DNA of 39,407 nt from an uncultured Granulosicoccus sp. (GTDB taxonomy: Bacteria > Pseudomonadota > Gammaproteobacteria > Granulosicoccales > Granulosicoccaceae). The notes under the pieces were generated by a model, which saw only the letters and a program-made list of their open reading frames with translations, did no database searches and was not told where the DNA came from. Location of the stretch: contig CALKLO010000131.1 in the NCBI GenBank assembly GCA_937991945.1, forward strand, positions 1 to 39,407, read 5' to 3'. A program made the position numbers and the translations under genes. Position 1 is the first letter of the stretch. Every line of letters begins with the position of its first letter. Positions 6,435 through 36,031 of the stretch are shown piece after piece.

Positions 6435-6731
6435 TTACGATTTTGCGACGAATGCGCTGCAAGATGCTTCGGCAGCGACTGAGCTACCTGGAAACAATGG
6501 GCATGCGCCCACTGATGTACCTGCTTCACCGGTGTAGAGTGCGCAAGAGATGCACATTTTTCCCTCTGGTCCGACGTCTACGTATTGTAGAGCTACGGCT
6601 TGAGCTGATGCAGCGTCAACCAACGGATCAGCAGCGTGGCTTGGTAAGCTAGTGATCAAAGCGCTAAGAGGAATTGCAGCAGCGCCGGCACTGAACATTG
6701 TTACAAACTTACGACGGTTGATATCGGTCAT
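6435..6731 (-). CDS. High-potential iron-sulfur protein (HiPIP), Tat-exported
   Basis: This is a small [4Fe-4S] electron carrier of 98 residues. The four ligands are C60, C63, C77 and C91 in the spacing C-x2-C-x13-C-x13-C, with the family-typical GACPLFPG around the third and CSAF at the fourth. The N-terminus NRRKFV, a hydrophobic stretch and SHA before ADP at about 33 form a twin-arginine signal, so the folded protein should be periplasmic. HiPIPs shuttle electrons from cytochrome bc1 to oxidases or reaction centres. A ribosome binding site AAGGA precedes the ATG, and a strong terminator follows, so it is probably monocistronic. A Fur-box-like site lies 119 bases upstream. The family is certain; its redox partners here are not known. 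Confidence 0.95.
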   Translation of the reverse strand: MTDINRRKFVTMFSAGAAAIPLSALITSLPSHAADPLVDAASAQAVALQYVDVGPEGKMCISCALYTGEAGTSVGACPLFPGSSVAAEASCSAFVAKS

Positions 6732-7242: not shown

Positions 7243-7494
7243 CTAGCCTGCCTGAATAGGCGGCATTAACGCTAAGTCGTCGTTATCGGACAACAGGGTG
7301 CTTGTGTAAGTATCGCTGGGAATAACTGTACCGTTGAGGATGACGAGCAACCGTTGCTCGTCAGGGACATTCAAATCAGCCAATAAAGCGCTCAGTGTCA
7401 GTCCATCTACACTGTCGATTACTACGGTGTTGCCCACCGTACCTTTAGGCTTGTAACGAACCAAGGGTCCACCTAGTTTGATTTTAAGAGGCAC
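7243..7494 (-). CDS. MoaD/ThiS-like beta-grasp sulfur carrier of the aldehyde oxidoreductase cluster
   Basis: This is an 83-residue protein with a GTG start that overlaps the end of the oxidoreductase gene by 11 bases, implying translational coupling. The sequence has the MoaD/ThiS layout: an N-terminal strand, LTLSALLADLNVP as the helix, LLVILNGTVIPSD in the middle and DDLALMPPIQAG at the C-terminus. Sulfur carriers normally end in GG, whose carboxylate becomes a thiocarboxylate; here the end is AG. The context suggests it helps make or insert the pterin dithiolene cofactor of the neighbouring enzyme, as proposed for AorD-like proteins. That role is inferred. Confidence 0.8.
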   Translation of the reverse strand: MPLKIKLGGPLVRYKPKGTVGNTVVIDSVDGLTLSALLADLNVPDEQRLLVILNGTVIPSDTYTSTLLSDNDDLALMPPIQAG

Positions 7495-9322
7495 TGTACT
7501 CGCCCAGTTTTAATCGTCCTAGCGTGTCGTTTGTCGGTAGACCTTGATCGTTCCAGCCTCGTAAAGAGTAGTACTCAGGCAGCATGATATCGAGCTCAGC
7601 AACACGACCCTTTGCGACACCTGCAGGGCAGGGAGTCTCTAGCAGTCTTGGCGGTAGAGTATCGTCAGCTTTGGTTAAGCCTGCGCGAAGATTAAACAAC
7701 CGTTCTAAATTCCATATTCTTTCCCCGGTAACCATCAGACGCTCTTGCGTCCAATCGTCGCCACAGGCTGCACTGACTTGTTGCTGCAATTCGTCGACGT
7801 CCCAAGCAGCCAACGTGAATATACAAATACCCATGGAGTCGACCATGGCAATTTTGTCTTGAGAGTGCTTGCACGGCGCAGCCTTACCATTGCCACTTTG
7901 ATCTTCCATGTCTTCGGCAAATACATCGTGCTTCAGATGGCAGGCTCCTCGATTACTTGTGGCGTACCCTAAGCCCATTCCTTGCTGAGCACGAGAATCA
8001 TAACCAGCGAACTCTTGCCCTTTAACAACCATGGCAAGTTCTGGGCGGCCATAATGTTCGCACAGGCGTTTGGCGCCTAAGCCGAGCATTTTCCCAAACC
8101 CTTGATGCAGTCCGGTTTTCTCAGCCATGATCGTTAAGGCTTCAGCGTTACCAAAATTGAGCGCGATACCATCAGTTTCTTCTTGCGTGATTATGCCTAA
8201 CTCATACAATTCCATAGCAGCAGCTAGCGTCACACCGAATGAAATAGGATCCATGCCATGCTCGTTCATAAGATAGCCGGCAAACGTTAAGGCATCGATA
8301 TCGTCCACGCCAATAACAGGACCAAAAGCAAAGGCTGTTTCATATTCCAAACCACCCGACGCGTGGTGGTACTGAGGCCGGTCTCTGATGGCCCAATGGT
8401 TCTTGTCAATGTGCGCGATGCGTCCACAACCAATAGTGCAACCAAAGCAAGCTTTGTTAGTAATTAAATTGGTATGCCCGTTTTCGTTAGCATCAATCAT
8501 TGCACTCGGGTTTACTTTGTCGGTGCCTTCGAACATCACATCTTGGAAGTTGCGTGTCGGTAGTCCGCCAAACGCATTCATGGTATCAATCATGGCGTTT
8601 GTACCGAACTCGGTGAGATCTTTTCGACCTGCGTTGTCTTCCAGTAGTTTATGCGTGTGGGTGACCACCTTCATGAAGTGCGCAGGGTCGTCTACGTTGA
8701 CACCGCGTGTTCCACGAACCGCAATCGCTTTCAAGTTTTTGGAGCCCATAACAGCGCCAACACCGGAGCGTCCTGCAGCTCGGTGTAAATCGTTAACAAC
8801 ACACGCATAGCGAACGCCAACTTCACCAGCCACGCCAATAGATGCGACCTTAATTTGTGGGTCTTTGTGTGCTTCTTTGATGGTTTCTTCTGTATGCCAA
8901 ACGGTGGTGCCCCAATACTGATCAGCAGGTTCGATAGTGACTTGCTCATCTTGAATCAGTAAATAGACAGGTGATTTTGCACGCCCCTCCAAAATAAGTA
9001 AGTCGTATCCGGCAAACTTTAGTTCTGCGCCGAACTTACCACCCGAGTTAGAGCAAGCAATTGCGTTAGTTAATGGGCCTTTTGTGACCACAGCATAGCG
9101 ACCACCGGTTGATGCCATGGTGCCCGTGAGTGGGCCAGTAGCAAAAATAAGGACATTCTCTGGCGACATAGCATCGACAGTTGGGTCCATCATTTCCATA
9201 AGGTACTTGGTGGCTAAGCCACGCGAACCTAAGTAGTCATCTCGCCATTGTGTGTTTAATGGTTCGACCCGGGTAGTGCCATCCGATAGATTCGCTATCA
9301 AGACTCTGTTATGCCAACTCAT
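7484..9322 (-). CDS. aor: Tungsten-containing aldehyde:ferredoxin oxidoreductase, catalytic subunit
   Basis: The family oxidises aldehydes to carboxylates with a tungsten bis-pterin cofactor and one [4Fe-4S] cluster in the cytoplasm. At 612 residues it has full family length. The cluster ligands are visible as C292-x2-C295-x3-C299 (ACFGCTIGCG) plus a distant C500 in MGICIFT, a spacing close to that of the Pyrococcus enzyme. Pterin-binding regions include GGRYAVVTKGPLTN (73-86), the GGLEYET segment near 323-329 and QQGMGLGYATSNRGACH (446-462). The ATG overlaps the stop of the upstream polyferredoxin gene (ATGA), with GGAG seven bases before it. The MoaD-like gene overlaps its end. Which aldehyde is used, and whether W or Mo is inserted, cannot be read from sequence. 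Confidence 0.94.
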   Translation of the reverse strand: MSWHNRVLIANLSDGTTRVEPLNTQWRDDYLGSRGLATKYLMEMMDPTVDAMSPENVLIFATGPLTGTMASTGGRYAVVTKGPLTNAIACSNSGGKFGAELKFAGYDLLILEGRAKSPVYLLIQDEQVTIEPADQYWGTTVWHTEETIKEAHKDPQIKVASIGVAGEVGVRYACVVNDLHRAAGRSGVGAVMGSKNLKAIAVRGTRGVNVDDPAHFMKVVTHTHKLLEDNAGRKDLTEFGTNAMIDTMNAFGGLPTRNFQDVMFEGTDKVNPSAMIDANENGHTNLITNKACFGCTIGCGRIAHIDKNHWAIRDRPQYHHASGGLEYETAFAFGPVIGVDDIDALTFAGYLMNEHGMDPISFGVTLAAAMELYELGIITQEETDGIALNFGNAEALTIMAEKTGLHQGFGKMLGLGAKRLCEHYGRPELAMVVKGQEFAGYDSRAQQGMGLGYATSNRGACHLKHDVFAEDMEDQSGNGKAAPCKHSQDKIAMVDSMGICIFTLAAWDVDELQQQVSAACGDDWTQERLMVTGERIWNLERLFNLRAGLTKADDTLPPRLLETPCPAGVAKGRVAELDIMLPEYYSLRGWNDQGLPTNDTLGRLKLGEYSAS

Positions 9323-9744
9323 GTATTTGCTCCAGCTGGAACAGCATAAGTAATGGCACCGGTAGGGCAGGCCTCAGCACACTTTGGATCGCCGTCGCAT
9401 AGGTTGCATTTAGTAACCTTACCGCTTCGGGTGTTGAAGTTGATAGTGCCGTACGGGCAAGCCATGGTGCACACTTTACAACCGACACACAGTGAATCGT
9501 TTACGACTTTGGTTCCTAACTCTTGGTTGATGCTTATTGCATCAGTAGGGCAGGCCTTCATGCACCATGCCTCTTCGCATTGTGTGCAGGTGTAGGGAAC
9601 GTTACGTTTGCCGTGTTCGAATTCGAATACTTTTATTCTTGAAAACGCAGGTGCAAATAAACCCTCGTGCTCAAGTGAACAGGCAAGTTCGCACTGAACA
9701 CAGCTGGTGCATTTGTTAGCATCCAGAATTAGTTGTTTCAACAT
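9319..9744 (-). CDS. Four-cluster polyferredoxin, electron-transfer subunit of the aldehyde oxidoreductase
   Basis: The 141-residue protein contains 16 cysteines in four groups: CTSCVQCELAC (12-22), CTQCEEAWCMKACP, CVGCKVCTMACP and CNLCDGDPKCAEACP. This is the pattern of the four-[4Fe-4S] ferredoxin-like subunits (HycB/DmsB type, AorA in Aromatoleum) that pair with oxidoreductases. It has no signal peptide, which fits a cytoplasmic partner. It is coupled to the catalytic gene by an ATGA overlap and preceded by AAAGGAAC. The DUF937 gene ends 31 bases upstream on the same strand, so the transcript may start further up. No flavin-containing AorC-like gene lies next to it. Confidence 0.92.
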   Translation of the reverse strand: MLKQLILDANKCTSCVQCELACSLEHEGLFAPAFSRIKVFEFEHGKRNVPYTCTQCEEAWCMKACPTDAISINQELGTKVVNDSLCVGCKVCTMACPYGTINFNTRSGKVTKCNLCDGDPKCAEACPTGAITYAVPAGANT

Positions 9745-9775: not shown

Positions 9776-10318
9776 TTATCGCAACATGGTTTTAGCAGCC
9801 ATACCGAGAACGTCATCCCAGATGGATCCATCCCTATCACCGTCCAATAGCGAGGTCAGAAGACCGCCGCTGCCTGCGCGGGTGTTTGTTGCCGAGCCAC
9901 CAATAACTTTTTTACTCAATGCACCCATCACTAGAGAGGCAACTATGGGCAACATTTTTTTCAGCACGGTACTGCTCAGCCCAGATGTCTTGGACGCTCG
10001 GTTAGCGACTTCACGGCTGACTTTCTTATCGCCGAATATATGACCAAGAATATCGTTGCCGTCTTTGGTGGTATCGGGGGCACTAAGGGTTCCGGGTTTC
10101 TCCATATACTGCTTATGGCTGCCGGTACGTAGAGCCTCAAGCAGATCATCCATGCCTTGGCCATTTTCAGTGTTCTTTTGCAGGCCTCGAGACAGTGCAG
10201 GAATAAGTTCTTCGACTGCGGCGCGAGTTTCTTTCTCACTGAGATTGAAGTTTTTTTGAACTTCGTCAATCACTGCCTTATTTTCGTCGGCAAAGAGGGT
10301 GTCCAGAATATTGCTCAT
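9776..10318 (-). CDS. DUF937 family protein
   Basis: This is a 180-residue protein with an acidic N-terminal half (NILDTLFADENKAVIDEV) containing helical segments, then the DUF937 core: GNDILGHIFGDKK, VANRASKTSGLSSTVLKKMLPIVASLVMGALSK in shorter runs, and a glycine-rich tail GGLLTSLLDGDRDGS. DUF937 proteins (relatives of E. coli YidB) have no settled function. There is no signal peptide. It sits upstream of the ferredoxin-oxidoreductase genes in the same direction with a 31-base gap, so cotranscription is possible, though a functional link is not shown. An inverted repeat covers its likely ribosome binding site. Confidence 0.8.
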   Translation of the reverse strand: MSNILDTLFADENKAVIDEVQKNFNLSEKETRAAVEELIPALSRGLQKNTENGQGMDDLLEALRTGSHKQYMEKPGTLSAPDTTKDGNDILGHIFGDKKVSREVANRASKTSGLSSTVLKKMLPIVASLVMGALSKKVIGGSATNTRAGSGGLLTSLLDGDRDGSIWDDVLGMAAKTMLR

Positions 10319-10813: not shown

Positions 10814-11086
10814 GTAATATTGTGCCGTTAATCTTGCACACCAGAGTGCCTATCGTACCCATATGATGACGAATTACCAACCCCTGAGGCCAATCTCTTG
10901 TGCTGACAATAGCATGGCTCCACATGTGGTTCAAAACTGTGCCCAATGGCAAAATCATAAAAAGCCCGATCCCATGCGGTTTCGTGATTTCTGACTTTAA
11001 AAAATGACACCCTTAACCTATTTAATTGGCTAGTAGTCGGCTGGTCCGGCAAGCTACACTACCGCGACCAATCCATGGAGTATTTT

Positions 11087-11887
11087 ATGAGCGATCTGAT
11101 TGCTGACGCGATCGATATGACATTTACCACGCCAAACGGTGATGTTGTCCGCGCGTTGAAAAATGTCAGTTTTACGCTCAAGGAGGGAGAGCTGCTTTCC
11201 GTTCTGGGGCCCTCCGGTTGTGGGAAGACGACTCTACTCAATTTAATCGCCGGTTTTCTTCGACCCACTGGCGGACTATTAACCTTGGGGGACCAGGAAA
11301 TTGATGGTCCCGGTGTAGAGCGAGGCATGGTGTTCCAGCAAGGGGCATTGTTCGAATGGCTCACCGTATCGGAAAATGTCGATTTCGGTTTGCGCATGAA
11401 AAACGCCAACAAAAAAGAGACTGCTCGAAAAGTGGAGGAGTGGCTGGAAATTGTTGGTCTGCAAGGATTTGGTGACACGCCTACCTATCAGCTTTCAGGT
11501 GGTATGCAACAACGCGTCGCTTTGGCCCGCTGCCTCATTAACGATCCAGACCTCATCCTGATGGATGAACCTCTCGGAGCTCTTGACGCACTGACGAGAG
11601 AAAAGATGCAGTCTCTCGTGTTGAAAATCTGGAAAGAGACGGGCAAGACAATCATGATCATCACTCACTCAGTGGAAGAAGCATTGCTGTTAGGTGAGCG
11701 CCTATTTGTCATGGCACCGCGTCCTGGTCGTCTACATAAAGAATATTCCCTGCCGTTCGCTGAGCTTGGTCTGGAGCAGGACCCTCGCGACATCAAGAAC
11801 AACAGCGAATTTGCGCAAACGCGTGAGGAAATACTCTCCATGATTTGGAATATGGAAGAAGAAATCATGGGGACAGCGTCATCATGA
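11087..11887 (+). CDS. ABC transporter ATP-binding protein, TauB/SsuB/NrtD type
   Basis: This 266-residue ATPase powers an importer of the nitrate/sulfonate/taurine class. Walker A is GPSGCGKT at 41-48, the Q-loop VFQQGAL at about 83-88, the signature LSGGMQQR at 136-143, Walker B LILMDEP at 156-162 and the H-loop His at 195 in [10 protein letters not shown]. The start at 11087 is preferred over the in-frame ATG at 11075 because GGAG (11077-11080) lies six bases before it. The stop overlaps the permease ATG (ATGA), so the two are translationally coupled. The substrate cannot be read from the ATPase. Confidence 0.93.
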
Positions 11888-13782
11888 GTGCTGTAGGTTT
11901 AAGAGGCTTAGTTATCGGAGCCCTATTCATCGGTCTTTTCTTGGCATTGATTTCTTGCTGGATATACGGTCGACGACTAATCAAAAATGAGAAGACCGAT
12001 GCCGTATTCGGTAACCCAGTAAAAGCGTTAGGGGGCTGGCACTGGATCGTGTCAGGTGTCGCCACCATATTGTTGGTGTGGTTGTATTTCTCTTGGGATG
12101 CAGCGCGAGCATTTTTCCCGCAAGCCGCAAACGAGTTGTGTCAGGTGGCCAAGGTTAATACCGCTGTTCACCCTATGCGCTCATCATTTCCTTTCGATAC
12201 GCGTTTGCCTAAAGGTACGATCATTCTCGCGCGTGAAAATGGTCAACTCGCCAGGATAACGGCCGACTTAGGTAGTGCAGACTATTCGGACCAAGAGCGA
12301 GCGGAGCTTCAGCCTTACTTGGACAGGGCTCAGACTATCCTGACATCGATGGCAGCTGAAGGTAGTGTCGACAACGAAACGCTTCAGGCAATCACAGGCG
12401 TTTCACAACGTATCGATGATCTGACAGCGATTCTTGAAGCGGGCGAGCTACCGGAAGGGGCTGATGCTGCAATCATTCAGGCACGAGACGATCAACCAGG
12501 TTGGGGCGATAGCTCTCAAGAAGTCCCTGTTGATCCGACATCGCGTCGTGGTGCTTTGTTTGACTCAGTGGCCGCGCCGATGGCTGAAATATCTCGCGAT
12601 TTTTCTAAAATCCGAAACACTAACGCGAAGTTCGTTGAAGACGTTGCAGCTTTAGACGCTGAATTAAAAGCGTTATCTGATGGCAGTGAGTCAGCGGGTG
12701 TTATCGCTTTTGCACGCGACATGAACAAGCTACTTAAGCGGGTTGATAACGGTGCAGTCTTTCCACCGGGTGCGTTGGACCCCATAGAAGCGTCACTAGC
12801 GAGTTTTCACACGGTTCAGCAAGACAAGCAAGGTAGCTTGAAGCTCATTGATGCCATTGCTATGCCGTCCGGTACCATCTTGGCAGGTAACACTGCGTGC
12901 AGTGAGCAAGGTTCGGGGCGCTGGTTGCCAAAACCATCTGATACCTTCGCAACGTTGGTACGTTTGTCTGATCCAGAAGTTGGTTACAAAGGCTTTCCAT
13001 TGTTGTGGTACAAGCAAAAGCCGCTAGCTGAGATGGTCGGTTTCTTGGTTCCTGATTTTATTGCTGATCTAATCCCTGGTGAGTATCCTCGTCATGGCGC
13101 TAATGGGTTAGTTGAGCAAAACTTCAAAGCTAAAGTGTTAGCAATCGCGACTGGAAATTTTAACTCCCCGAACGTGCCAGTTCCGACTGGGCATGTATGG
13201 GATTCCGTTCTACGTGTACTAGCAGGTTTGTTCCTAGGTATTTTGCTGGGTGTTCCGTTGGGTCTATTTATGGGACTGTCCCGATTTGCGAAAGGCTTTT
13301 TCGATCCAATGATTGAGCTGTACAGGCCGGTACCACCTTTGGCTTGGGCGCCGTTGATCTTGACCATTTTCGGTATACAAGATGACGGTAAGATATTCCT
13401 GCTCTTTATGGTTGCTTTCGCCATTATGGTTATATCTGCCAGAACAGGGGCTACAGGTACGCAACTGTCTAAGATTCATGCAGCACACTCCTTGGGTGCT
13501 TCGCGTTGGCAGATTGTTCGCTCGGTTATCTTGCCTAACTCATTGCCTGAAATTCTCACCGGTATTCGTATCTCTATCGGTGTGTGTTGGGGAACCTTGG
13601 TAGCGGCGGAAATGTTGGCGGGTACCACGGGTATTGGTTTTGTAGAAAACGTTGCTAGAAAGCAATCTGACTACGAAATCATTTGGGTAACGATCATTCT
13701 GCTGGGCCTATTAGGTTTACTGTTTGATTTGATTATGCGTTTTGTTATTCACAAGACCATTCCATGGCGCGGCAAGGGCTAG
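11884..13782 (+). CDS. ABC transporter permease with a large extra domain before the transport core
   Basis: The C-terminal 195 residues (about 437-625) are a TauC/SsuC-type permease core with VWDSVLRVLAGLFLGILLGV, YRPVPPLAWAPLILTIFG and the EAA-like loop AAHSLGASRWQIVRSVILP. This family is normally about 250-280 residues, but the protein is 632. Two helices (about 6-28 and 52-72) are followed by some 360 residues (73-435) of non-membrane sequence with helical, coiled-coil-like stretches (residues 139-189 and 240-265), two cysteines (C86, C339) and a repeated-looking phrase LPKGTIILA / MPSGTILAG (109-117, 328-335). Given the flanking helices I infer a periplasmic location. No substrate-binding protein gene is adjacent. 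The start at 11884 overlaps the ATPase stop. Confidence 0.88.
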   Translation: MSAVGLRGLVIGALFIGLFLALISCWIYGRRLIKNEKTDAVFGNPVKALGGWHWIVSGVATILLVWLYFSWDAARAFFPQAANELCQVAKVNTAVHPMRSSFPFDTRLPKGTIILARENGQLARITADLGSADYSDQERAELQPYLDRAQTILTSMAAEGSVDNETLQAITGVSQRIDDLTAILEAGELPEGADAAIIQARDDQPGWGDSSQEVPVDPTSRRGALFDSVAAPMAEISRDFSKIRNTNAKFVEDVAALDAELKALSDGSESAGVIAFARDMNKLLKRVDNGAVFPPGALDPIEASLASFHTVQQDKQGSLKLIDAIAMPSGTILAGNTACSEQGSGRWLPKPSDTFATLVRLSDPEVGYKGFPLLWYKQKPLAEMVGFLVPDFIADLIPGEYPRHGANGLVEQNFKAKVLAIATGNFNSPNVPVPTGHVWDSVLRVLAGLFLGILLGVPLGLFMGLSRFAKGFFDPMIELYRPVPPLAWAPLILTIFGIQDDGKIFLLFMVAFAIMVISARTGATGTQLSKIHAAHSLGASRWQIVRSVILPNSLPEILTGIRISIGVCWGTLVAAEMLAGTTGIGFVENVARKQSDYEIIWVTIILLGLLGLLFDLIMRFVIHKTIPWRGKG

Positions 13783-22870: not shown

Positions 22871-23227
22871 TTGCTAGCCACATATTTCCCCGTCCTCCTG
22901 TTCATCATCATCGGGCTAGGCCTTGGCGTTGCACTGTTGACCGTGGGTCGTCTAGCTGGACCCTCCAATCCCGGAAAAGACAAAAACTCTCCTTACGAAT
23001 GCGGTTTCGAAGCATTCGAAGATGCGCGAATGAAATTTGACGTTCGCTATTACCTAGTTGCCATTCTTTTCATCATTTTTGATCTCGAAATCGCATTTTT
23101 AATCCCTTGGGCGGTCACACTGGATTCAATATCCGGAACGGCGTTCGCCGCAATGGGAGTCTTCCTCTTTATCCTAGTCATCGGATTTATATACGAGTGG
23201 AAGAAAGGCGCGCTCGAGTGGGAATAA
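22871..23227 (+). CDS. nuoA: NADH-quinone oxidoreductase subunit A
   Basis: NuoA is a small membrane subunit of complex I next to the quinone site. The 118 residues show three helices and the conserved loop [25 protein letters not shown] (in pieces: SPYECGFE with the quinone-site cysteine, [19 protein letters not shown]). The start is TTG with GGAG seven bases upstream. It opens the operon; nuoB follows four bases later. Confidence 0.96.
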
Positions 23228-23231
23228 CATC

Positions 23232-23708
23232 ATGGGTATAGAGGGAGTTCTGGAAGAAGGGTTTGTAACCACTTCTGCAGACAAACTGATCAACTGGGCT
23301 CGTACAGGCTCCATGTGGCCAATGACGTTTGGTTTGGCCTGTTGCGCTGTCGAAATGATGCACGCCGGTGCTGCGCGTTATGACTTAGATCGCTTCGGAA
23401 TCATTTTTCGACCTAGTCCGAGACAATCGGACGTAATGATTGTAGCGGGAACACTCGTTAATAAAATGGCTCCGGCGCTGCGTAAAGTCTACGACCAAAT
23501 GCCTGACCCTAAATGGGTTATTTCTATGGGAAGCTGCGCAAACGGAGGCGGTTATTACCACTACTCCTATGCGGTTGTCAGAGGTTGCGACCGTATCGTG
23601 CCAGTGGACGTGTACGTGCCGGGTTGTCCGCCCACTGCTGAAGCGCTTTTATACGGCATCTTGCAGTTGCAGAACAAGATCCGTACAACCAACACAATAG
23701 CTCGCTGA
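23232..23708 (+). CDS. nuoB: NADH-quinone oxidoreductase subunit B
   Basis: NuoB carries cluster N2, the last iron-sulfur cluster before quinone. Its ligands are visible as the tandem C37-C38 in [11 protein letters not shown]102 in SMGSCANGG and C132 in [11 protein letters not shown]. The 158-residue length is that of the family. It lies four bases after nuoA and five bases before nuoC. Confidence 0.97.
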
Positions 23709-23713
23709 AGACC

Positions 23714-24457
23714 ATGCCGACACGCGTTGAACAAATGAGGGATGCGCTGCAAGCAGCATTTCCAGAAAACGACACGATTCGAGTATCACTCGACATGGCT
23801 GTCATTGATGTTGCTCCTGATCAATTAGTTAGCGTTTGCCAACAATTACACGACGACCCCGCGCTATCGTTTAAACAAATGAGCGATCTGTGTGGAGTCG
23901 ACTTTGCTACTTACGGTTCCACTGAGTGGTCAACTGATACAGGCAACATGGCAAGCTTTAGTAGAGCGGTAAATGCATCGTCTACTGGAAGCCTGACATT
24001 CAACACCGGTTTAGACCTACCTGCATCAGATCAACCACGCTTTGTCGTGATCTACCATTTGCTTTCGTTGGATCATAACGTTCGCTGTCGCGTTCGTTGT
24101 GCAGCACCTGACGACGAAATGCCGGTTGTGCCATCCATAACACCGGTTTGGAACAATGCTGATTGGTACGAGCGAGAAGCCTTTGATCTGTTTGGCATTC
24201 TATTCGATGGCCATGCAGACTTACGTCGAATTCTTACCGATTATGGTTTCACGGGCCACCCATTCCGCAAAGACTTTCCGCTTATTGGAACGGTCGAAAT
24301 GCGCTACGACTCGGTAAAAGAGCGGGTAGTTTATGAGCCCGTGAGTATCGAACCCCGCGTATTGGTTCCACGAGTTATTCGTGAAGATTCACGTTATGCC
24401 TCTGGCGAGTCTGTAAGCAAGACCGAAAGCGACGCTGCGAAGAAAAACGATGCCTGA
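23714..24457 (+). CDS. nuoC: NADH-quinone oxidoreductase subunit C
   Basis: NuoC is the 30-kDa subunit of the peripheral arm. The 247 residues include the family core [32 protein letters not shown] (in pieces: [33 protein letters not shown]). An extra divergent segment of about 40 residues lies near 75-100 ([10 protein letters not shown] and nearby), and the C-terminal tail is charged. It is a separate gene here, not fused to nuoD as in E. coli. Its end overlaps the nuoD start by eight bases. Confidence 0.96.
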
Positions 24458-25703
24458 GATACGCAATTACACATTGAATTTCGGCCCGCAGCATCCCGCT
24501 GCACACGGCGTTTTGCGCCTGGTGTTAGAAATGGATGGCGAGGTAGTAGAGCGAGCCGACCCGCATATCGGATTGCTTCATCGTGGTACCGAGAAGCTGG
24601 CAGAGTCTAAGCCTTACAACCAGACCATCGGCTACATGGATCGCCTAGATTACGTCTCCATGATGTGTAATGAGCATGGTTATGTCATGGCCATAGAAAA
24701 ATTGCTTGAAGTCGAAGTCCCCAAGCGTGCGCAGTACATTCGCACCATGTTCGATGAAATTACACGTATTTTGAACCACCTGATGTGGTTAGGCGCACAC
24801 GGTTTAGATATCGGTGCCATGTCCATCTTCTTGTATTGCTTTCGCGAGCGAGAGGACCTAATGGATTGCTACGAAGCTGTATCGGGTGCAAGACTGCACG
24901 CCACCTATTACCGGCCCGGCGGTGTTGCCAGAGATCTACCCGATCGCATGCCGCAATACGAAGCGTCACGATTCACCAGTAAAGCTGCTGCATCAAAATT
25001 AAACGATAAGCGTCAAGGCAATATGCTCGACTTCCTTGAAGACTTCGTGCAACGTTTTCCTAAGTGTGTCGATGAGTACGAGACACTCTTAACGGATAAT
25101 CGCATTTGGAAGCAACGCACGGTCGGCATCGGTGTTGTTACTCCAGAGCGGGCGTTACAACTCGGCTTTACCGGTCCTATGTTGCGTGGTTCTAACATCG
25201 AATGGGATCTACGTAAGAAGCAGCCATACGAGGTTTACGACGAACTCGACTTCGACATCCCCGTCGGTGTTAACGGCGATAGCTATGATCGTTACTTGGT
25301 GCGCATTGAAGAAATGCGTCAGTCCAATCGCATTATTAAGCAATGCATTGATTGGCTGCGAGTCAACGAAGGCCCGACTATTACCGAAGACCACAAAATA
25401 GCACCGCCGCGTCGTGCGGAAATGAAAGGTGATATGGAATCACTTATTCACCATTTCAAATTGTTTACTGAAGGCTTTTGTTTGCCTGAAGGCGAAGCGT
25501 ATGCGGCAGTCGAGCATCCCAAGGGTGAGTTTGGTTGTTTTCTCGTATCCGATGGCGCCAACAAGCCTTATCGATTGAAAGTTAGAGCGCCCGGTTTTCC
25601 GCATTTGGCATCGCTAGATGAGATGGCACGCGGACATATGCTCTCTGACGTGGTCGCTCTTATCGGAACACAAGATATCGTGTTCGGTGAGATAGATCGC
25701 TAG
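24450..25703 (+). CDS. nuoD: NADH-quinone oxidoreductase subunit D
   Basis: NuoD is the 49-kDa subunit, which with NuoB forms the quinone-binding pocket. The 417 residues include [21 protein letters not shown] near the start (histidines of the quinone site), [10 protein letters not shown], a [17 protein letters not shown] stretch and the C-terminal [19 protein letters not shown], which are all family hallmarks. It overlaps nuoC by eight bases, and nuoE begins 46 bases later. Confidence 0.97.
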
Positions 25704-25749
25704 GTGGTAACGATGAATCGCAACAAAAACTGTTGATAGAGACGCATAC

Positions 25750-26271
25750 ATGAGTTCAGTACCTGCCGACGTCACTTTGCCAACACCGGAATCCGTGTTG
25801 AGTGAGCACTCGATCGAGGAGATCGATGAGTGGCTTACCCGCTATCCGGACGATCAAAAGCAAAGCGCTGTGCTTGCCGCATTGAGTGTTGCGCAGCATC
25901 AAAATTTGGGTTGGCTTTCAACGGAACTCATGGATGCAGTTGCGGCCAAACTAGAGATGGCACCCATCGCTGTGTATGAAGTGGCTAGCTTCTATTCCAT
26001 GTTCGAAACTAAGCCTGTCGGTAAACATTGTGTGGCTATCTGCACGAACATCAGCTGCATGCTGATGGGGTCCGATACCATCGTTGAACATGTAGAAAAC
26101 AAATTCGGTATTAAGTTGGGTGATTCAACCAGCGACGGCAAAATCTATTTGAAAGTTGAAGAAGAGTGTTTGGCGGCGTGTTCGGGTGGACCCATGATGC
26201 AGGTTGATCATGTCTATCACACGCAGCTTACACCGCAAAAAGTGGATGAAATTCTCGATGCGCTTGATTAA
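25750..26271 (+). CDS. nuoE: NADH-quinone oxidoreductase subunit E
   Basis: NuoE is the 24-kDa [2Fe-2S] subunit (cluster N1a) of the NADH dehydrogenase module. The ligands are C98 and C103 (CTNISC) and C140 and C144 (CLAAC). EVASFYSMFETKPVGKH is a family signature. The 173-residue length is normal. It sits between nuoD and nuoF. Confidence 0.96.
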   Translation: MSSVPADVTLPTPESVLSEHSIEEIDEWLTRYPDDQKQSAVLAALSVAQHQNLGWLSTELMDAVAAKLEMAPIAVYEVASFYSMFETKPVGKHCVAICTNISCMLMGSDTIVEHVENKFGIKLGDSTSDGKIYLKVEEECLAACSGGPMMQVDHVYHTQLTPQKVDEILDALD

Positions 26272-26298
26272 TACAGATTCGAGAATAGGGGAGACACG

Positions 26299-27624
26299 AT
26301 GAGCGATATAGCGCTACCTGAAGGCCTCGCGCCAATGAATCAGGTTTGTTACACCACGTTGCAGTTCGATGAGCCGTGGACGTACGAAAACTATTTGGCC
26401 ATTGGTGGCTACAAAGCCTGGAACAGAATCCTCGAAGAGAAGTTGTCTCCAGACGACGTTGTTCAAATTGTAAAAGATTCCGGTTTGCGTGGCCGTGGTG
26501 GTGCAGGGTTTCCAACCGGTCTCAAGTGGAGCTTCATGCCTAAAAATGGCGGGCAAAGCTACTTTGTTATTAACTCTGACGAGTCAGAGCCCGGTACCTG
26601 CAAAGATCGCGATCTTATTCGTTTTAACCCGCACGCCTTAGTTGAAGGCATGTTGATTGGCAGCTACGCCATTCGCGCAACGGTTGCTTACAACTACATG
26701 CGCGGCGAGTTTATGGACCAAGTCTATAAGAACTTCATGCAAGCGATTAAAGATGCCTACGACAACGGTTGGGCTGGTACAGACATAAAAAGCAGTGGCA
26801 TTGATATTGAGGTGATAGGCACGTTGGGCGCAGGCGCCTACATTTGCGGCGAAGAAACCGCATTGCTCGAGTCACTTGAAGGAAAGAAGGGCCAGCCACG
26901 ATTTAAACCGCCATTTCCAGCAGGCTTTGGTTTGTATGGTCGCCCAACGACCATCAACAACACCGAGTCTGTAGCCAGTGTGCCAGCGATCATTCGCAAT
27001 GGCGCTGAGTGGTTCAAGGGTATGGGCATCGAAACAGCTGGTGGCCAGAAATGCTTTTCCGTATCAGGCCATGTCGCAAAGCCTGGTAACTTTGAAATTA
27101 ATTTAGGAACACCGTTTTCTACGCTGCTGGAACTAAGCGGTGGAATGAAAGACGGTATTCCTTTGAAAGCTGTTATTCCCGGTGGGTCTTCAGTGCCTGT
27201 TGTACCAGGAGATCTCATGATGACAACCAATATGGATTACGACTCCATTTCTAAGGTTGCTGGGTCCATGTTGGGTTCAGGTGCGGTCATCGTCATGAAC
27301 GAAACAACCGATATGGTGGTGGCTTTGCGCCGAATATCGCGCTTCTACTACTCTGAGAGCTGTGGGCAGTGCACACCTTGCCGTGAAGGAACAGGCTGGT
27401 TGTATCGCATGTTAACGCGTATCGTTGAAGGCAAAGGTTTGCCAGAAGATATCGATAAGCTCGAAGATGTCGCTGGCAAAATTGCTGGACGTACTATCTG
27501 TGCACTGGGTGATGCGGCGGCAATGCCGGTGCAGAGTTTTGTAAAACACTATCGGCACGAGTTCGAGTATTACATTCAAAACGGACGCAGTATGGTGTCC
27601 GACAAACTGGGAGCAGTCGCCTGA
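26299..27624 (+). CDS. nuoF: NADH-quinone oxidoreductase subunit F
   Basis: NuoF binds NADH and FMN and holds cluster N3. GRGGAGFPTG (65-74) and GAGAYICGEETALLESLEG form the nucleotide and flavin sites. The N3 ligands are C355, C358 and C361 (CGQCTPC) with C401 in TICALGD. The 441-residue length is normal. A ribosome binding site GGGGAGA lies just before the ATG. Confidence 0.97.
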   Translation: MSDIALPEGLAPMNQVCYTTLQFDEPWTYENYLAIGGYKAWNRILEEKLSPDDVVQIVKDSGLRGRGGAGFPTGLKWSFMPKNGGQSYFVINSDESEPGTCKDRDLIRFNPHALVEGMLIGSYAIRATVAYNYMRGEFMDQVYKNFMQAIKDAYDNGWAGTDIKSSGIDIEVIGTLGAGAYICGEETALLESLEGKKGQPRFKPPFPAGFGLYGRPTTINNTESVASVPAIIRNGAEWFKGMGIETAGGQKCFSVSGHVAKPGNFEINLGTPFSTLLELSGGMKDGIPLKAVIPGGSSVPVVPGDLMMTTNMDYDSISKVAGSMLGSGAVIVMNETTDMVVALRRISRFYYSESCGQCTPCREGTGWLYRMLTRIVEGKGLPEDIDKLEDVAGKIAGRTICALGDAAAMPVQSFVKHYRHEFEYYIQNGRSMVSDKLGAVA

Positions 27625-27683
27625 TCTATTATGTATAGATCAAGTCCGGCACCCGAAGCTGCCATTTTTGCGAAAATTGATAC

Positions 27684-30032
27684 ATGAGTGACGACACCAC
27701 AATTCAGATTACCGTTGACGGCACACCGCTGACAGCTCAGCGTGGACAAATGCTGATCGAGGTCACCGATGCTGCGGGTATCGATGTGCCGCGTTTCTGC
27801 TACCACAAGAAGCTATCGGTGGCAGCTAACTGCCGTATGTGCTTAGTTGAAGTAGAGAAAGCGCCAAAGCCCTTACCGGCCTGCGCTACACCGGTTATGC
27901 CAGACATGGTGGTTCACACCGCCTCTAAGCTTGCCAGAGCTGCGCAGAAAGGCACCATGGAATTTCTGCTAATCAATCACCCTCTCGATTGCCCCATTTG
28001 CGATCAAGGCGGCGAGTGTGAATTGCAAGATGTCGCCATGGGCTACGGCGGCGGTGCTTCTCAATACACAGAAGGCAAGCGCGTTGTTTTTGATAAGTAC
28101 ATCGGCCCCTTAATCGCAACTGAAATGACACGCTGCATCCACTGCACACGATGTGTTCGGTTCGGTGAAGAAATAGCAGGTATTCGTGAGTTGGGAGCGA
28201 CTGGGCGAGGCGAGAACGTTCGCATCGGCACCTATATTGAAAAATCAGTTGTCTCAGAGGTGTCTGGCAATGTCATTGATATTTGCCCAGTAGGTGCTTT
28301 GACAGCAAGACCCTCTCGTTACACCGCACGCTCATGGGAGTTGTCTCAGCAACCTTCTGTCTCTCCACATGACTCAGTGGGCTCCAATGTCTTCGTACAC
28401 CTAGATGGCACCACCATTAATCGGGTTGTGCCAAGAGAAAACGAATCTATCAATGAAGTCTGGATTGCCGATAGAGACCGCTTCAGCTACCAAGGTTTAA
28501 CGAATTCAGACAGACTTCAAACACCTATGGTGCGTGTTGATGGAGAGCTACAAGCGTGTGATTGGTCAACAGCGTTAGCCGCTGCGGCAGATCACGTGCG
28601 TCGCCAAGATTTAGGCGTTCTGGTCTCACCCAATGTGACACTTGAAGAATTGTATTTGAGTCAAAAGCTAGGCCGCGCTCTAGGTACAAACAATATTGAT
28701 CATCGTTTAGGTCAGTTAGATTTTACAGCGCAAGATGCAGCTCCAGTCATGCCTTGGTTAGGTATGCAGTTAAACGATCTAGAAACCCTAGATGCCGCAT
28801 TGTTGATCGGGTCCAACATACGTAAGGACCAACCTATAGCAGCACTTCGATTGCGTAAATCAGCTCTGAAGGGTGCCGCTATCAGCTTCATTAATCCTAA
28901 GCGTTTCGGTTTGCATTTCGACGCTTGCGAAAATATTGCTACACGATACGACCACATGGTGTCCGAGCTTCTATGCGTTGCTATGGCTTGCGGTGCTGAT
29001 GTCTCTGCAATGGCTGACATGCCGTCAACCGATGCTAACGAGCGCCATCAACGCATTGCCGACTCACTAAACAATGGTGAAAGGGCAGCGGTATTTCTTG
29101 GCAATATCTCAGTACAACATCCTTCGTACTCGCAGCTGCAATACTTAGCTGTGGCTATTGCCCGTAAAACCGGTGCAACACTCGGTATGTTGCCAGAACG
29201 TGCCAATACAGCAGGCGCTTGGTTGGCTGGCGCTGTACCGCATCGTGTAGCAGGTGGTAAGAAATCCTCTACCGAGGGTCTCAATGCACACGCCATGCTC
29301 GAAGCACCATTAGCCGCTTACTTGTTGGTTGGCTGCGAACTTGAGTTCGATGCCGCTAACCCGGCACAGGCACTGAGCAGTTTGAAAGGTGCGAGCAGTG
29401 TGGTTGCCATAAGCTCATACATGAGCGACAGCTTGCGTGAACATGCCGATGTCATTTTGCCATCAGCAACGTTTACTGAAACATTCGGAACCTATGTAAA
29501 TGCAACGGGTAACTGGCAGAGCGCTCGCGGTGTAACAGCACCTCCAGGTGATGCTCGACCCGCGTGGAAAATCTTTCGAGTCTTGGCCGATGAGCTTGAG
29601 ATCGATGGATTTACCTACGACAGCCCAGAAGCTGTCACCAAAGAGCTGCAAGGCCAATGTGGTGATGTGCAGCTAACGAATATGATTCAGTTCGATTCGG
29701 TTAAGGCATTTGAAGCACCAAGTACTGCTGCGTTACTCAGAGCAGGCGAGACGCCTATTTACGCAACTGACCCTATCGTTCGTCGTTCGCAGCCGTTGCA
29801 AAAGTCTTTGGACGGTAAGCAAGCGTTTGCTTTCATGGCCGATGCTGAATTGCAAAAATTGTCTTTGAAAGACGGTGATGTTGTCCAGATCAAACAAAAT
29901 GGTTCGGCAGTCTCCCTACCGAGCAAGCTGGATAACGACATTCCACTAGGATGCGTTTGGGTTCCTACGGGATTACCAGAAACGGCGGCTCTGGGTGAGT
30001 TGTTCGGCGAAATTGAGGTGAGTAGAGCTTAA
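27684..30032 (+). CDS. nuoG: NADH-quinone oxidoreductase subunit G
   Basis: NuoG is the 75-kDa iron-sulfur subunit. Ligands read directly: N1b at C39, C50, C53 and C67; N5 at H99, C103, C106 and C112; N4 at C151, C154, C157 and C201. The extra N7 cluster of E. coli and Thermus is missing: the matching stretch reads [11 protein letters not shown] (225-235) without cysteines. The 782-residue length is below the 908 of E. coli. A degenerate molybdopterin-oxidoreductase-like domain fills the C-terminal part. The stop overlaps the nuoH ATG by one base. Confidence 0.97.
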
Positions 30033-31045
30033 TGGATGCATTAATCCTTACTGTTATGACTCTACTCAAGATTGTCGCGGTCTTGGTGCCGTTGATCTTG
30101 TGTGTGGCTTACTTGACGCTTGCAGAGCGTAAAGTTATTGGATCGATGCAAGTACGGGTAGGACCTAACCGAGTTGGTTTTAAAGGTCTTGGGCAACCGT
30201 TTGCTGATGTGTTCAAGCTGATGTTCAAAGAAGTCATCATTCCTACTAATTCATCAAAATTTCTATTCCTCACAGCACCCATTTTGTCACTAGCACCGGC
30301 TGTGGCGGCTTGGGCTGTCATACCGTTCGCGGATGGTTGGGCAATTTCTGACGCTAATGCCGGGTTGCTCTACGTGCTCGCCATGACCTCCATCGGTGTA
30401 TACGGAGTCATCATTGCAGGTTGGGCGTCGAACTCTAAATATGCGTTTTTAGGTGCCATGCGATCTGCAGCGCAAATCGTAGCCTATGAAATAGCTATGG
30501 GTTTCGCACTTATTGGCGTTCTCATGATGTCTGGCAGTCTGAACTTGGGTGATATTGTTCGCGCTCAAAGCGGTGGCTTCTTCAACTGGTATCTGTTTCC
30601 ACTGTTTCCATTGGCCATTGTTTACTTCATATCCGGTGTGGCCGAAACGAACCGTGCACCGTTTGATGTTGCCGAGGGTGAGTCGGAAATTGTCGCAGGT
30701 TTTCACGTTGATTATTCCGGTATGGCATTCGCGCTGTTCTTCTTAGCCGAGTACGCCAACATGATTATGATTGCGGCGTTGGCAGCCATTCTGTTCTTGG
30801 GTGGGTGGATGTCGCCTATTGATGGATTTGGCGATGGTATTCACTGGTTCTTGATCAAGACAGCTGCCATGCTGTTTATATTTTTGTGGCTCAGAGCAAC
30901 GTTCCCTCGCTATCGCTATGACCAAATCATGCGATTGGGTTGGAAGGTGTTTATACCGGTCACGATTGTGTGGATAGCCGTTGTTGGGTTCGCCATTTAT
31001 TTCGAAGTGGGTCCTTGGTTCAGTTCCGTTCGCGGTGCTGGCTAG
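30032..31045 (+). CDS. nuoH: NADH-quinone oxidoreductase subunit H
   Basis: NuoH is the membrane subunit (ND1) that forms part of the quinone tunnel. The 337 residues contain the family signatures [40 protein letters not shown] and [16 protein letters not shown], with about eight helices. The ATG shares one base with the nuoG stop (TAATG), indicating coupled translation. Confidence 0.97.
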
Positions 31046-31076
31046 TCATCAATAGACAAGGATTGAGAAGAGAAAC

Positions 31077-31568
31077 ATGACAGGACAAATCAGCAAGTAC
31101 ATTAAGAGCTTTACCTTATGGGAGCTGCTGAAAGGCATGAGCCTGACAGGTAAGTACTTTGTGTCTGGCAACATCACTATTCAGTATCCGGAAGAGAAGA
31201 CTCCTCAGTCTCATCGCTTTCGTGGATTACATGCACTGCGTCGTTACGCTAATGGCGAAGAGCGTTGCATTGCCTGTAAGTTGTGCGAAGCAGTATGTCC
31301 TGCACTAGCCATTACCATTGACTCCGAACAACGCGATGACGGTAGCCGCAGAACAACGCGCTATGACATCGATTTGTTTAAGTGTATTTTTTGTGGATTC
31401 TGCGAAGAGGCTTGCCCAGTAGACTCCATAGTAGAGACCCGTATTTTTGAATATCACTTCGAAAACCGAGGTGAACAGATCATGACCAAAGACAAATTAC
31501 TTGCCATTGGTGACAAATATGAAGCTCAAATCGCTGCCGACCGTGCAGCGGATTCAGCATTCCGATAA
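31077..31568 (+). CDS. nuoI: NADH-quinone oxidoreductase subunit I
   Basis: NuoI carries the two [4Fe-4S] clusters N6a and N6b. The ligands are C64, C67, C70 and C74 ([12 protein letters not shown]) and C103, C106, C109 and C113 ([12 protein letters not shown]). The N-terminal amphipathic helix (about 5-25) docks on the membrane arm. The 163-residue length is normal. Confidence 0.97.
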
Positions 31569-31605
31569 TTGATTTGCGCGTGTACGTTTACCTAAGGAAC
31601 ATCCA

Positions 31606-32214
31606 GTGACTTTCGAACTGTTCGTTTTCTATCTATTCGCGGCCATCATGATTTTTGCCGCGTCGCGTGTCATCTCAGTGCGCAACCCCGTGCATGCAGC
31701 CATGTATTTGGTGTTGACGTTTTTCACCTGCGCTGGCATCTGGTTGCTTCTGGAAGCAGAGTTTCTAGCCATGACGCTAGTGCTTGTTTACGTGGGTGCG
31801 GTCATGGTGCTATTCCTGTTTGTTGTCATGATGCTTGATGTCAACGTGGAACCCATGCGAGAAGGCTTTGTTAAATACCTGCCAGTGGGTTTGTTGGTGG
31901 GACTGATCATGCTTGTTGAGATGGTGTTTCTCATTACACAACGCTATTTCAAGTCTGAGCAATTCCCCATTCCTGAGCGCGCAAGTGCGGAAGGTATGAG
32001 CAACACGGAGTCGTTAGGGCGGTTGTTGTACAGCGAATACCTGTTTCAGTTTGAAATCGCTGCCATCATCTTGCTGGTTGCCATTGTTGCGGCCATCGCA
32101 TTGACTATGAGACGCCGACCAGAAACTAAATACCAAAAGCCTTCTGAGCAGATTGCCGCAAACAAGCAAGACCGTTTGCGAGTGGTTCAAATGCCTTCAG
32201 AAAAGCGTACTTGA
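31606..32214 (+). CDS. nuoJ: NADH-quinone oxidoreductase subunit J
   Basis: NuoJ (ND6) is a membrane subunit with five helices; the third is kinked by [18 protein letters not shown], which is seen here. [15 protein letters not shown] is another family hallmark. The start is GTG with AAGGAAC upstream. The 202 residues end in a basic soluble tail. nuoK begins 22 bases after the stop. Confidence 0.96.
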
Positions 32215-32236
32215 TCGAGACGGATACCAGACAACT

Positions 32237-32542
32237 ATGATCACACTGTCTCATTACCTCACGTTAGGCGCTTTGCTATTTTGCCTAAGTGTTGTGGGTA
32301 TATTCCTTAATCGAAAAAACGTCATTATTCTGCTGATGTGCATCGAGTTGATGCTGCTATCGGTGAACATGAACTTCGTTGCGTTCTCTTACTTTCTGGG
32401 AGACGGAGCAGGGCAGATTTTCGTATTTTTCATTCTGACCGTCGCAGCGGCGGAGGCAGCCATCGGGCTTGCCATACTTGTGGTGTTGTTCCGTACGCGG
32501 TCCACCATCAATGTTGCAGACCTTGACGCACTGAAAGGCTAG
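32237..32542 (+). CDS. nuoK: NADH-quinone oxidoreductase subunit K
   Basis: NuoK (ND4L) is a three-helix antiporter-like subunit. The reading frame is open from 32153, inside nuoJ, but the ATG at 32237 gives the family-normal 101 residues beginning [14 protein letters not shown]. The conserved buried glutamates are seen in [16 protein letters not shown] and [13 protein letters not shown]. It lies five bases before nuoL. Confidence 0.96.
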
Positions 32543-32547
32543 CCCAC

Positions 32548-34500: not shown

Positions 34501-34527
34501 TTATCACGCCCAATTGAGATTGAACCA

Positions 34528-36024: not shown

Positions 36025-36031
36025 GCGCCTC

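Follow-up and report, generated by a model that had tools for sequence, protein, structure and literature searches.

An Aldehyde Oxidoreductase Gene Cluster of an Uncultured Granulosicoccus with Altered Pocket Residues and No Adjacent Flavin Subunit

Gene Layout and the Catalytic Subunit

The DNA analysed here (the window, 39,407 nucleotides) is contig CALKLO010000131.1 (C131) of an uncultured marine Granulosicoccus sp., whose 3.8 Mb genome (G000) is 97% complete and has Granulosicoccus and Granulosicoccaceae metagenome-assembled genomes (MAGs) as its nearest named relatives. It contains a compact cluster for a tungsten-type aldehyde oxidoreductase (AOR), also termed tungsten-containing oxidoreductase (WOR), homologous to the AorABC enzyme of Aromatoleum aromaticum. 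The cluster consists of the following genes:

9319-9744, minus strand: aorA (worS), polyferredoxin with four [4Fe-4S] motifs; 141 aa, ATG start, matches to several Fer4 families, no C-terminal filament helix, Thr67 and Tyr98
7484-9322, minus strand: aorB (worL), tungsten-type aldehyde oxidoreductase; 612 aa, ATG start, cofactor ligands kept, Asp466 (codon 7925-7927) and Ala505
7243-7494, minus strand: moaD (worX-like), protein of the ThiS fold; 83 aa, GTG start, ending in Ala-Gly

Window AorB matches the Pfam families AFOR_N with 261 bits (cut-off 29.8) and AFOR_C with 415 bits (cut-off 27), the 16 cysteines of AorA are arranged as four cluster motifs, and the small protein matches ThiS with 37.5 bits. 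The genes overlap by 4 bp (aorA/aorB, ATGA) and 11 bp (aorB/moaD). A preliminary description of this DNA gave the coordinates, strand and gene order correctly, and the open reading frames (ORFs), Pfam matches and overlaps bear out its account of a four-cluster polyferredoxin, a full-length AorB and a MoaD-like gene in overlapping frames. Cys292, Cys295, Cys299 and Cys500 of AorB, rightly singled out there, align with the FS0 ligands Cys295, Cys298, Cys302 and Cys509 of Aromatoleum AorB. Compared with the homologues at locus L043 (AorB 92% identical), the nonsynonymous divergence (dN) is 0.04 for aorA and 0.06 for aorB, with synonymous divergence read as saturated, and both genes look strongly conserved.

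Three AOR-family genes are present in the genome of the window. On contig C31, a second AorB, 55% identical to that of the window and closer than it to Aromatoleum AorB (939 versus 757 bits), is encoded in the cluster aorA-aorB-aorC-moaD-(small ORF)-moaA. C31 AorA carries the C-terminal helix, and C31 AorC matches the FAD subunit of the Aromatoleum enzyme (PDB 8c0z) with 422 bits. When C31 AorC was compared with the whole 39.4 kb of the window by tblastn, no match was found at E ≤ 1, which rules out an overlooked adjacent flavin gene and agrees with the earlier statement that none is adjacent. The question of the missing flavin subunit thus has an answer that involves two enzymes.

For the placement of window AorB, an alignment of 99 rows was prepared from 80 genome loci (the best 80 of 115), the window, five further loci, 11 loci of the C31 type and two PDB chains, and a quick IQ-TREE phylogeny was calculated (LG+G4, SH-aLRT support, no bootstrap). 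Rows of the window's kind form a clade of 84 (SH-aLRT 99), designated type 1, separate from type 2, which comprises Aromatoleum AorB (8c0z) and the C31 type. Window AorB thus lies outside the Aromatoleum AorB clade, to which type 1 is a sister group with good support, as expected from the suggestion that it could represent a distinct branch of the family. L033, fetched as type 1, is placed outside the clade, and L032 is the sister of the clade and excluded from the 84. The Granulosicoccaceae type-1 rows form a single group of 26 (SH-aLRT 99); L063, one of these rows, is titled Chromatiales but represents the same contig as G038, a genome of the family.

The active site is preserved at its core. 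Fourteen ligand or catalytic positions are invariant in the window and in 99 of 99 rows: the FS0 cysteines (295, 298, 302 and 509 in Aromatoleum numbering), Arg75, Asn92, Gly94, Arg181, Ala182, Asp361 and Asp504 at the cofactor, and Glu331, Tyr443 and His464. At position 508 the window has Ile, like Aromatoleum, and at 510 Ile takes the place of Val. Position 484 is Gln in the window and variable across the set; the text of PMC10413684 has His484 at one point and names His464 elsewhere. The substrate pocket is different. In the excerpts of PMC10413684 used here, bound benzoate is contacted by Tyr468, Phe511 and Phe514 of Aromatoleum AorB, and a passage of the review PMC12096430 calls Tyr452 of PfAOR, which we equated with Tyr468 via the neighbouring His, highly conserved. 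Of the 84 type-1 rows, 83 have Asp in place of Tyr468, the exception being L068 with Ser, and all have a small residue in place of Phe514, namely Gly, Ala, Ser, Cys or Thr. Tyr and Phe are kept at these sites in type 2 (11/11), L033, 8c0z and PDB 9mqx; L032 has Asn and His. Window AorB, with Asp466 for Tyr468 and Ala505 for Phe514, lacks the AORAa/AORPf-type pocket that is a feature of that subclade, and Phe511 is unchanged. A 7-residue loop between the two pocket sites is missing in the seven type-1 rows compared and in L032; in the rows compared, no gaps interrupt the motif around either site. Given these replacements throughout type 1, the substrate of type-1 AorB probably differs from those of the Aromatoleum-type enzymes. 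Asp468 would provide a one-residue marker of an enzyme group whose substrate may be guessed.

The Polyferredoxin Subunit and Residue 98

According to the portions of PMC10413684 considered here, residues 138 onward of Aromatoleum AorA form the helix that builds the nanowire, and a mutant AorA ending at Asp137 gave only AorAB and AorABC, without filaments. Window AorA ends at residue 141, four past this cut point, and its tail (PTGAITYAVPAGANT) has no helix motif; its start (MLKQLILDANKC) shows by eye no twin-arginine (Tat) signal, a feature of Class V WOR. The motif was defined as a regular expression, which was widened once after the tails of L033 and L132 looked helix-like. It is missing from the AorA tail in 25/25 Granulosicoccaceae type-1 rows with AorA seen (L035 is cut). 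No adjacent AorC was detected in any of the 26 Granulosicoccaceae rows, of which L048 has only 467 bp downstream, with the MoaD-like gene first. Among all 86 rows fetched as type 1, including L032 and L033, AorC is adjacent in 27 and not in 58, and L110 is not judgeable. Where both traits are known, rows with adjacent AorC have the helix in 24 cases and lack it in two (L053, and L112 with a partly helix-like tail), and rows without adjacent AorC have it in 14 and lack it in 31.

AorA sites 7, 9, 67, 94, 98 and 135 each hold one residue in at least 85% of AorC-linked rows and in fewer than 30% of Granulosicoccaceae rows. The clearest pattern concerns residue 98, which is Phe in 49/49 rows with the helix and Tyr in 31/33 rows without it (exceptions L072 and L112). 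Tyr98 is found in all but one of the Granulosicoccaceae type-1 AorA proteins and in L053, which lost the helix and kept AorC, and Phe98 in all 14 type-1 rows that have the helix and no adjacent AorC. On the AorB tree, the helix and residue 98 each require seven changes. In five independent pairs on supported branches, both traits change in the same direction in four or five and never in opposite directions (p 0.0625-0.125); since only five pairs are available, p 0.05 is out of reach. Phe98 may therefore be part of the docking surface of the helix. The helix-less proteins are natural counterparts of the engineered helix deletion, and Phe98 is a candidate partner residue. Residue 67 is Val in 34/34 rows with adjacent AorC and Thr in 25/25 Granulosicoccaceae, an association with adjacent AorC that is not significant on the tree.

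Electron Route and the Whereabouts of AorC

As judged from these sequences, and with a confidence just above even, we regard the window cluster as encoding a second, specialised tungsten AOR, a soluble and non-filamentous AorAB heterodimer that would deliver its electrons to ferredoxin. Two electrons from the aldehyde hydrate would enter at tungsten, move along the iron-sulfur cluster of AorB and those of AorA, and reach a soluble ferredoxin, which Rnf could re-oxidise. The C31 aorABC genes would make a separate NAD-reducing filament, and each of the two enzymes would probably have its own aldehyde substrate. For the MoaD-like protein, a role connected with the pterin cofactor is assumed. An AorC-free window enzyme is favoured because AorA itself has changed, not because a gene is missing. 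The genome encodes an FdxA above its cut-off as well as RnfB and RnfC that exceed subfamily cut-offs; these genes are circumstantial for the ferredoxin route. The quinone pool, proposed in the preliminary description as another acceptor beside ferredoxin, found no support in the analyses run.

Several observations speak against an AorC-free enzyme. The association between adjacent AorC and the helix is not significant on the tree, where the five independent pairs available on supported branches give p 0.25 at best; a joint loss of the two as a rule is not supported there, and the co-variation of helix and residue 98 is firmer. The helix persists at 14 loci that have no AorC beside them, and L053 has lost it although AorC is adjacent. 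Of the four AorA residues named as AorC contacts, the window keeps Phe42, Trp60 and Ala95 and departs only at Pro9, where it has Ala. On the AorB side, Thr and Ile replace the named contacts Pro287 and Val290, two positions that are variable also where a type-1 locus has AorC next to it. Loss of the helix does not exclude AorC, because the helix mutant still bound AorC one-to-one in the part of PMC10413684 describing it. Ferredoxin as the acceptor is suggested by analogy with a published class. Finally, the window's genome encodes AorC elsewhere, on C31, and among the 27 Granulosicoccaceae genomes with type-1 AorB an AorC is present in 23.

These last figures come from a search with C31 AorC as query (E ≤ 1e-60), which found AorC in 40 of 48 Granulosicoccaceae genomes, 17 of them without type 1; the four type-1 genomes without a match are 68, 76, 80 and 82% complete. 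Outside the family, 57 loci led to 38 genomes examined, namely all 31 without seen adjacent AorC (including that of L110) and, as positive controls, 7 of the 26 with adjacent AorC. AorC was found in 37 of the 38, G146 being the miss. It is thus encoded elsewhere in 29 of the 30 genomes outside the family with a flavin-less type-1 locus, and the genome of L110 also has one. These counts rule out that a flavin-less locus means a genome without AorC, and because AorC lies elsewhere in 52 of 57 genomes with such a locus overall, gene adjacency is a weak test of subunit make-up.

The main rival explanation is a split operon in which AorC acts in trans: window AorAB would dock on C31 AorC and reduce NAD+ as a 1:1:1 AorABC, or join or cap mixed filaments. 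We consider it possible, although on the unlikely side. Besides the distribution of AorC and the AorABC formed by the helix-less mutant, it draws on genomes in which the subunit genes are visibly separated. In G148, G150, G152 and G153, a type-1 AorB accompanied by MoaD is the sole AorB found, and aorA-aorC without aorB lies elsewhere, in G150 at 1.8 Mb on the same contig; G156 likewise has a single AorB and a second aorA-aorC without aorB. For the first four, an enzyme assembled from distant genes is a prediction that is hard to avoid. In the window's genus, type-2 aorAB is 25 kb (G002) or 8.6 kb (G008) from aorC, or on another contig (G021). Nevertheless, C31 AorC has its own AorA and AorB, and window AorA is altered at Val67, Phe98 and Pro9, which are fixed or nearly fixed in AorC-linked AorA; the orphan AorA proteins beside AorC in G148, G150, G152, G153 and G156 kept Val67, Phe98 and the helix in 5/5. 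An AorC gene elsewhere that co-occurs with the cluster across relatives had been named in the preliminary description as evidence against a separate flavin-less version. Such a gene was found, but co-occurrence is no proof of sharing because C31 AorC has partners of its own. Within type 1, subunit make-up appears to change repeatedly around a similar catalytic subunit, with AorC adjacency coming and going, and class assignment from neighbouring genes misses far-off AorC genes.

Other AOR genes were seen in passing. At L105, L107, L108, L109 and L113 (gammaproteobacterial MAGs, one titled Spongiihabitans), type-1 AorB has no adjacent AorA or convincing MoaD, and their genomes also encode AorC and a further AorB match, of type-2 character. 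In the type-2 aorC cluster, moaD and moaA are separated by a conserved ORF of about 100 aa (L114:5321-5647; L123, L124, L126, L128 and L129). The third, divergent AOR gene of the window's genome (C69; L115:5168-6592) is cut by the contig end and directly follows, on the same strand, glcD-, glcE- and glcF-like genes (by eye); divergent AORs like it occur in many Granulosicoccaceae genomes, and a link to glycolate oxidation is possible.

The genes flanking the cluster introduce a further alternative:

9776-10318, minus strand: DUF937 protein, same strand as aorA, 31 bp before aorA
6435-6731, minus strand: high-potential iron-sulfur protein (HiPIP), signal-like N-terminus by eye

Electrons might leave through another partner, such as a different flavoprotein, a quinone-reducing module or the neighbouring HiPIP, which we judge improbable. 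A HiPIP gene lies near 17 of 81 type-1 loci; GMC oxidoreductase genes recur in four lineages, and GlcD-like and another FAD oxidase in two each. However, all 17 HiPIP loci are Granulosicoccaceae, at distances of 0.7-5.3 kb, so that the HiPIP is ruled out as lineage-bound synteny; it also has an export-type N-terminus (by eye), which AorA lacks, and is probably not the partner of a cytoplasmic enzyme. None of the recurring FAD genes (GMC, GlcD-like or the other FAD oxidase) lies within the window's cluster. Separately, a GlcD-like FAD oxidase gene (by eye) is directed away from aorA at L091 and L095 and at L080, L093 and L100, and at L091, L093 and L095 the gene after the MoaD-like one encodes, by eye, a LysE-type exporter; these are possible electron or product partners in those lineages.

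The MoaD-like protein raises the question of decay. A C-terminal Gly-Gly is the hallmark of ThiS/MoaD sulfur carriers, and the window protein lacks it. In a survey of 81 loci with a pattern that required Ala, Gly or Ser before the final Gly (12 loci without a match, and a spurious L113 match dropped), the end is Ala-Gly in 24/24 Granulosicoccaceae and Gly-Gly in 44/44 others found. The gene also evolves faster, with dN 0.26 versus 0.04-0.06 for aorA and aorB in the same pair with L043. Both features would suit a relic that is losing AorC, the helix and a working MoaD, but the ligands and catalytic residues are kept, the 26 rows have no interrupted frame, and dN is low in aorA and aorB, so that we consider a decaying cluster very improbable. 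Tungstate uptake is plausible from the genes present in the genome: C31 encodes a TupA-like binding protein (209 bits, cut-off 400, E 6e-62), and C82 encodes, beside a ModA over its cut-off, a permease that passes a generic subfamily cut-off and resembles TupB to some extent (143, cut-off 320). No Mo/W riboswitch was found in the window, where the sole Rfam match at gathering score is a tRNA.

As for the remaining neighbours, the DUF937 gene is possibly the first gene of the transcription unit, with promoter-like matches scoring below the shuffle mean. Positions 11075-13782 encode an ABC ATPase and a permease of 645 aa with an extended N-terminal part, taurine-type but scoring under the curated cut-offs. 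This transporter was not adopted as a clue to the substrate; its permease is conserved at 7 of 80 type-1 loci, all Granulosicoccaceae. The gene run at 22871-37468 is by eye an ordinary complex I (nuo) operon.

A Substrate Lead and Relation to Known Systems

GMC oxidoreductases are among the genes that recur beside type 1, its own subunits aside, and were located at 8 of 80 loci by tblastn. The choline dehydrogenase model TIGR01810 (cut-off 732 bits) is exceeded at L082 (774), L088 (760), L077 (774), L051 and L071 (791) and in G175, the genome of L052 (816), and not at L086 (661, short ORF) or L076 (550). This betA gene directly precedes aorA-aorB-moaD in L082 (192 bp from aorA) and L088 (83 bp), follows aorA-aorB-aorC and the MoaD-like gene in L077, and lies 5-7 kb downstream in L051, L071 and L052. 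Linkage is seen in 4 of 27 lineages, as grouped here, whereas the flank lengths and a single betA in each genome predict 0.10-0.15 (Poisson p 5e-6 to 2e-5, for a gene chosen after being seen). This suggests, weakly, betaine aldehyde as a type-1 substrate.

BetA and BetB were surveyed in 80 of 181 genomes, comprising all 48 Granulosicoccaceae and 32 others, with at most 17 candidates per genome scored for BetB. Curated BetB (TIGR01804) is over cut-off in 5/80 genomes and betA in 63/80. In the window's genus, BetB occurs in 4 of 9 members without type 1 versus 1 of 18 with it (G019; Fisher 0.030, uncorrected for kinship), and in none of the 53 other genomes. Contig C61 of the window's genome carries three consecutive genes (L187:4121-8964), one MttB-like, one sulfatase-like and by eye resembling BetC, and betA, with no aldehyde dehydrogenase or betB seen in the ORF list of the surrounding 16 kb; the arrangement would fit choline-O-sulfate use without the usual aldehyde dehydrogenase.

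A broader proposal, which we consider unlikely as a whole, is that type-1 enzymes, mostly in proteobacterial MAGs, are tungsten oxidoreductases for betaine aldehyde or another cationic aldehyde that replace BetB, with Asp468 facing the trimethylammonium group and the Granulosicoccaceae form also off the AorC-capped nanowire. Several points weigh against it: the GMC link was noticed before being tested, in two of the four linked lineages betA is not adjacent but 5-7 kb away, BetB is often missing also without type 1 (5/9 in the genus, 12/12 in the rest of the family), and G019 has both. In addition, each of 13 genomes contains other aldehyde dehydrogenases that could take this role, with scores of about 340-565 bits on the betaine aldehyde dehydrogenase model (cut-off 668.6). 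Among the literature matches listed, none links betaine aldehyde to a type-1-clade AOR, the passage matched in the review PMC12096430 concerning WOR5/ASOR, and none is a paper on the type-1 clade.

The nearest solved proteins are those of Aromatoleum AorABC (AORAa, PDB 8c0z), a Class III WOR. Window AorB matches its counterpart over the full length (757 bits) with identical cofactor ligands, and AorA matches with 195 bits and four motifs. In contrast, the window has no adjacent aorC and no AorA helix, the marks of Class III WOR and of the nanowire, and its AorB has an Asp and Ala pocket, a loop shorter by seven residues and a place in a separate clade. In the passages available of a 2026 classification (PMC13328260), flavin-less WorL and WorS constitute Class II with ferredoxin as acceptor, the aldehyde/acid couple is put at about -500 mV, and Class IV enzymes have a bifurcation module; clade 87, that of AaAOR, is listed among the clades with Class II members and is undescribed in that text, the characterized members being from clades 40 and 20. 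The window shares with Class II WOR (PfASOR, CbGOR) a large subunit and an adjacent four-cluster small subunit without an adjacent flavin gene (WorN), whereas its AorB is nearer to clade 87 (8c0z, 757 bits; PfAOR 1aor, 517 bits) than to PfASOR (WOR5, 6x1o; 190 bits).

The AOR of Moorella thermoacetica offers another comparison, as its AorA, in the section consulted of PMC12096430, likewise has no C-terminal extension and is presumed not to assemble into long filaments; unlike the window, it has an AorC gene in the operon. Very large Moorella complexes of up to 1600 kDa, cited in an excerpt of PMC10816221, sit uneasily with this account. All bacterial AORs were said in 2019 to have three subunits (PMC6365974). 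The flavin-less gene layout itself is already known; what is new is the pocket, the AorA changes and the distribution. PDB 9mqx, which we take to be Acetomicrobium WOR1, has homologous large (590 bits) and small (119 bits) subunits and differs from the window enzyme in keeping Tyr and Phe in the pocket.

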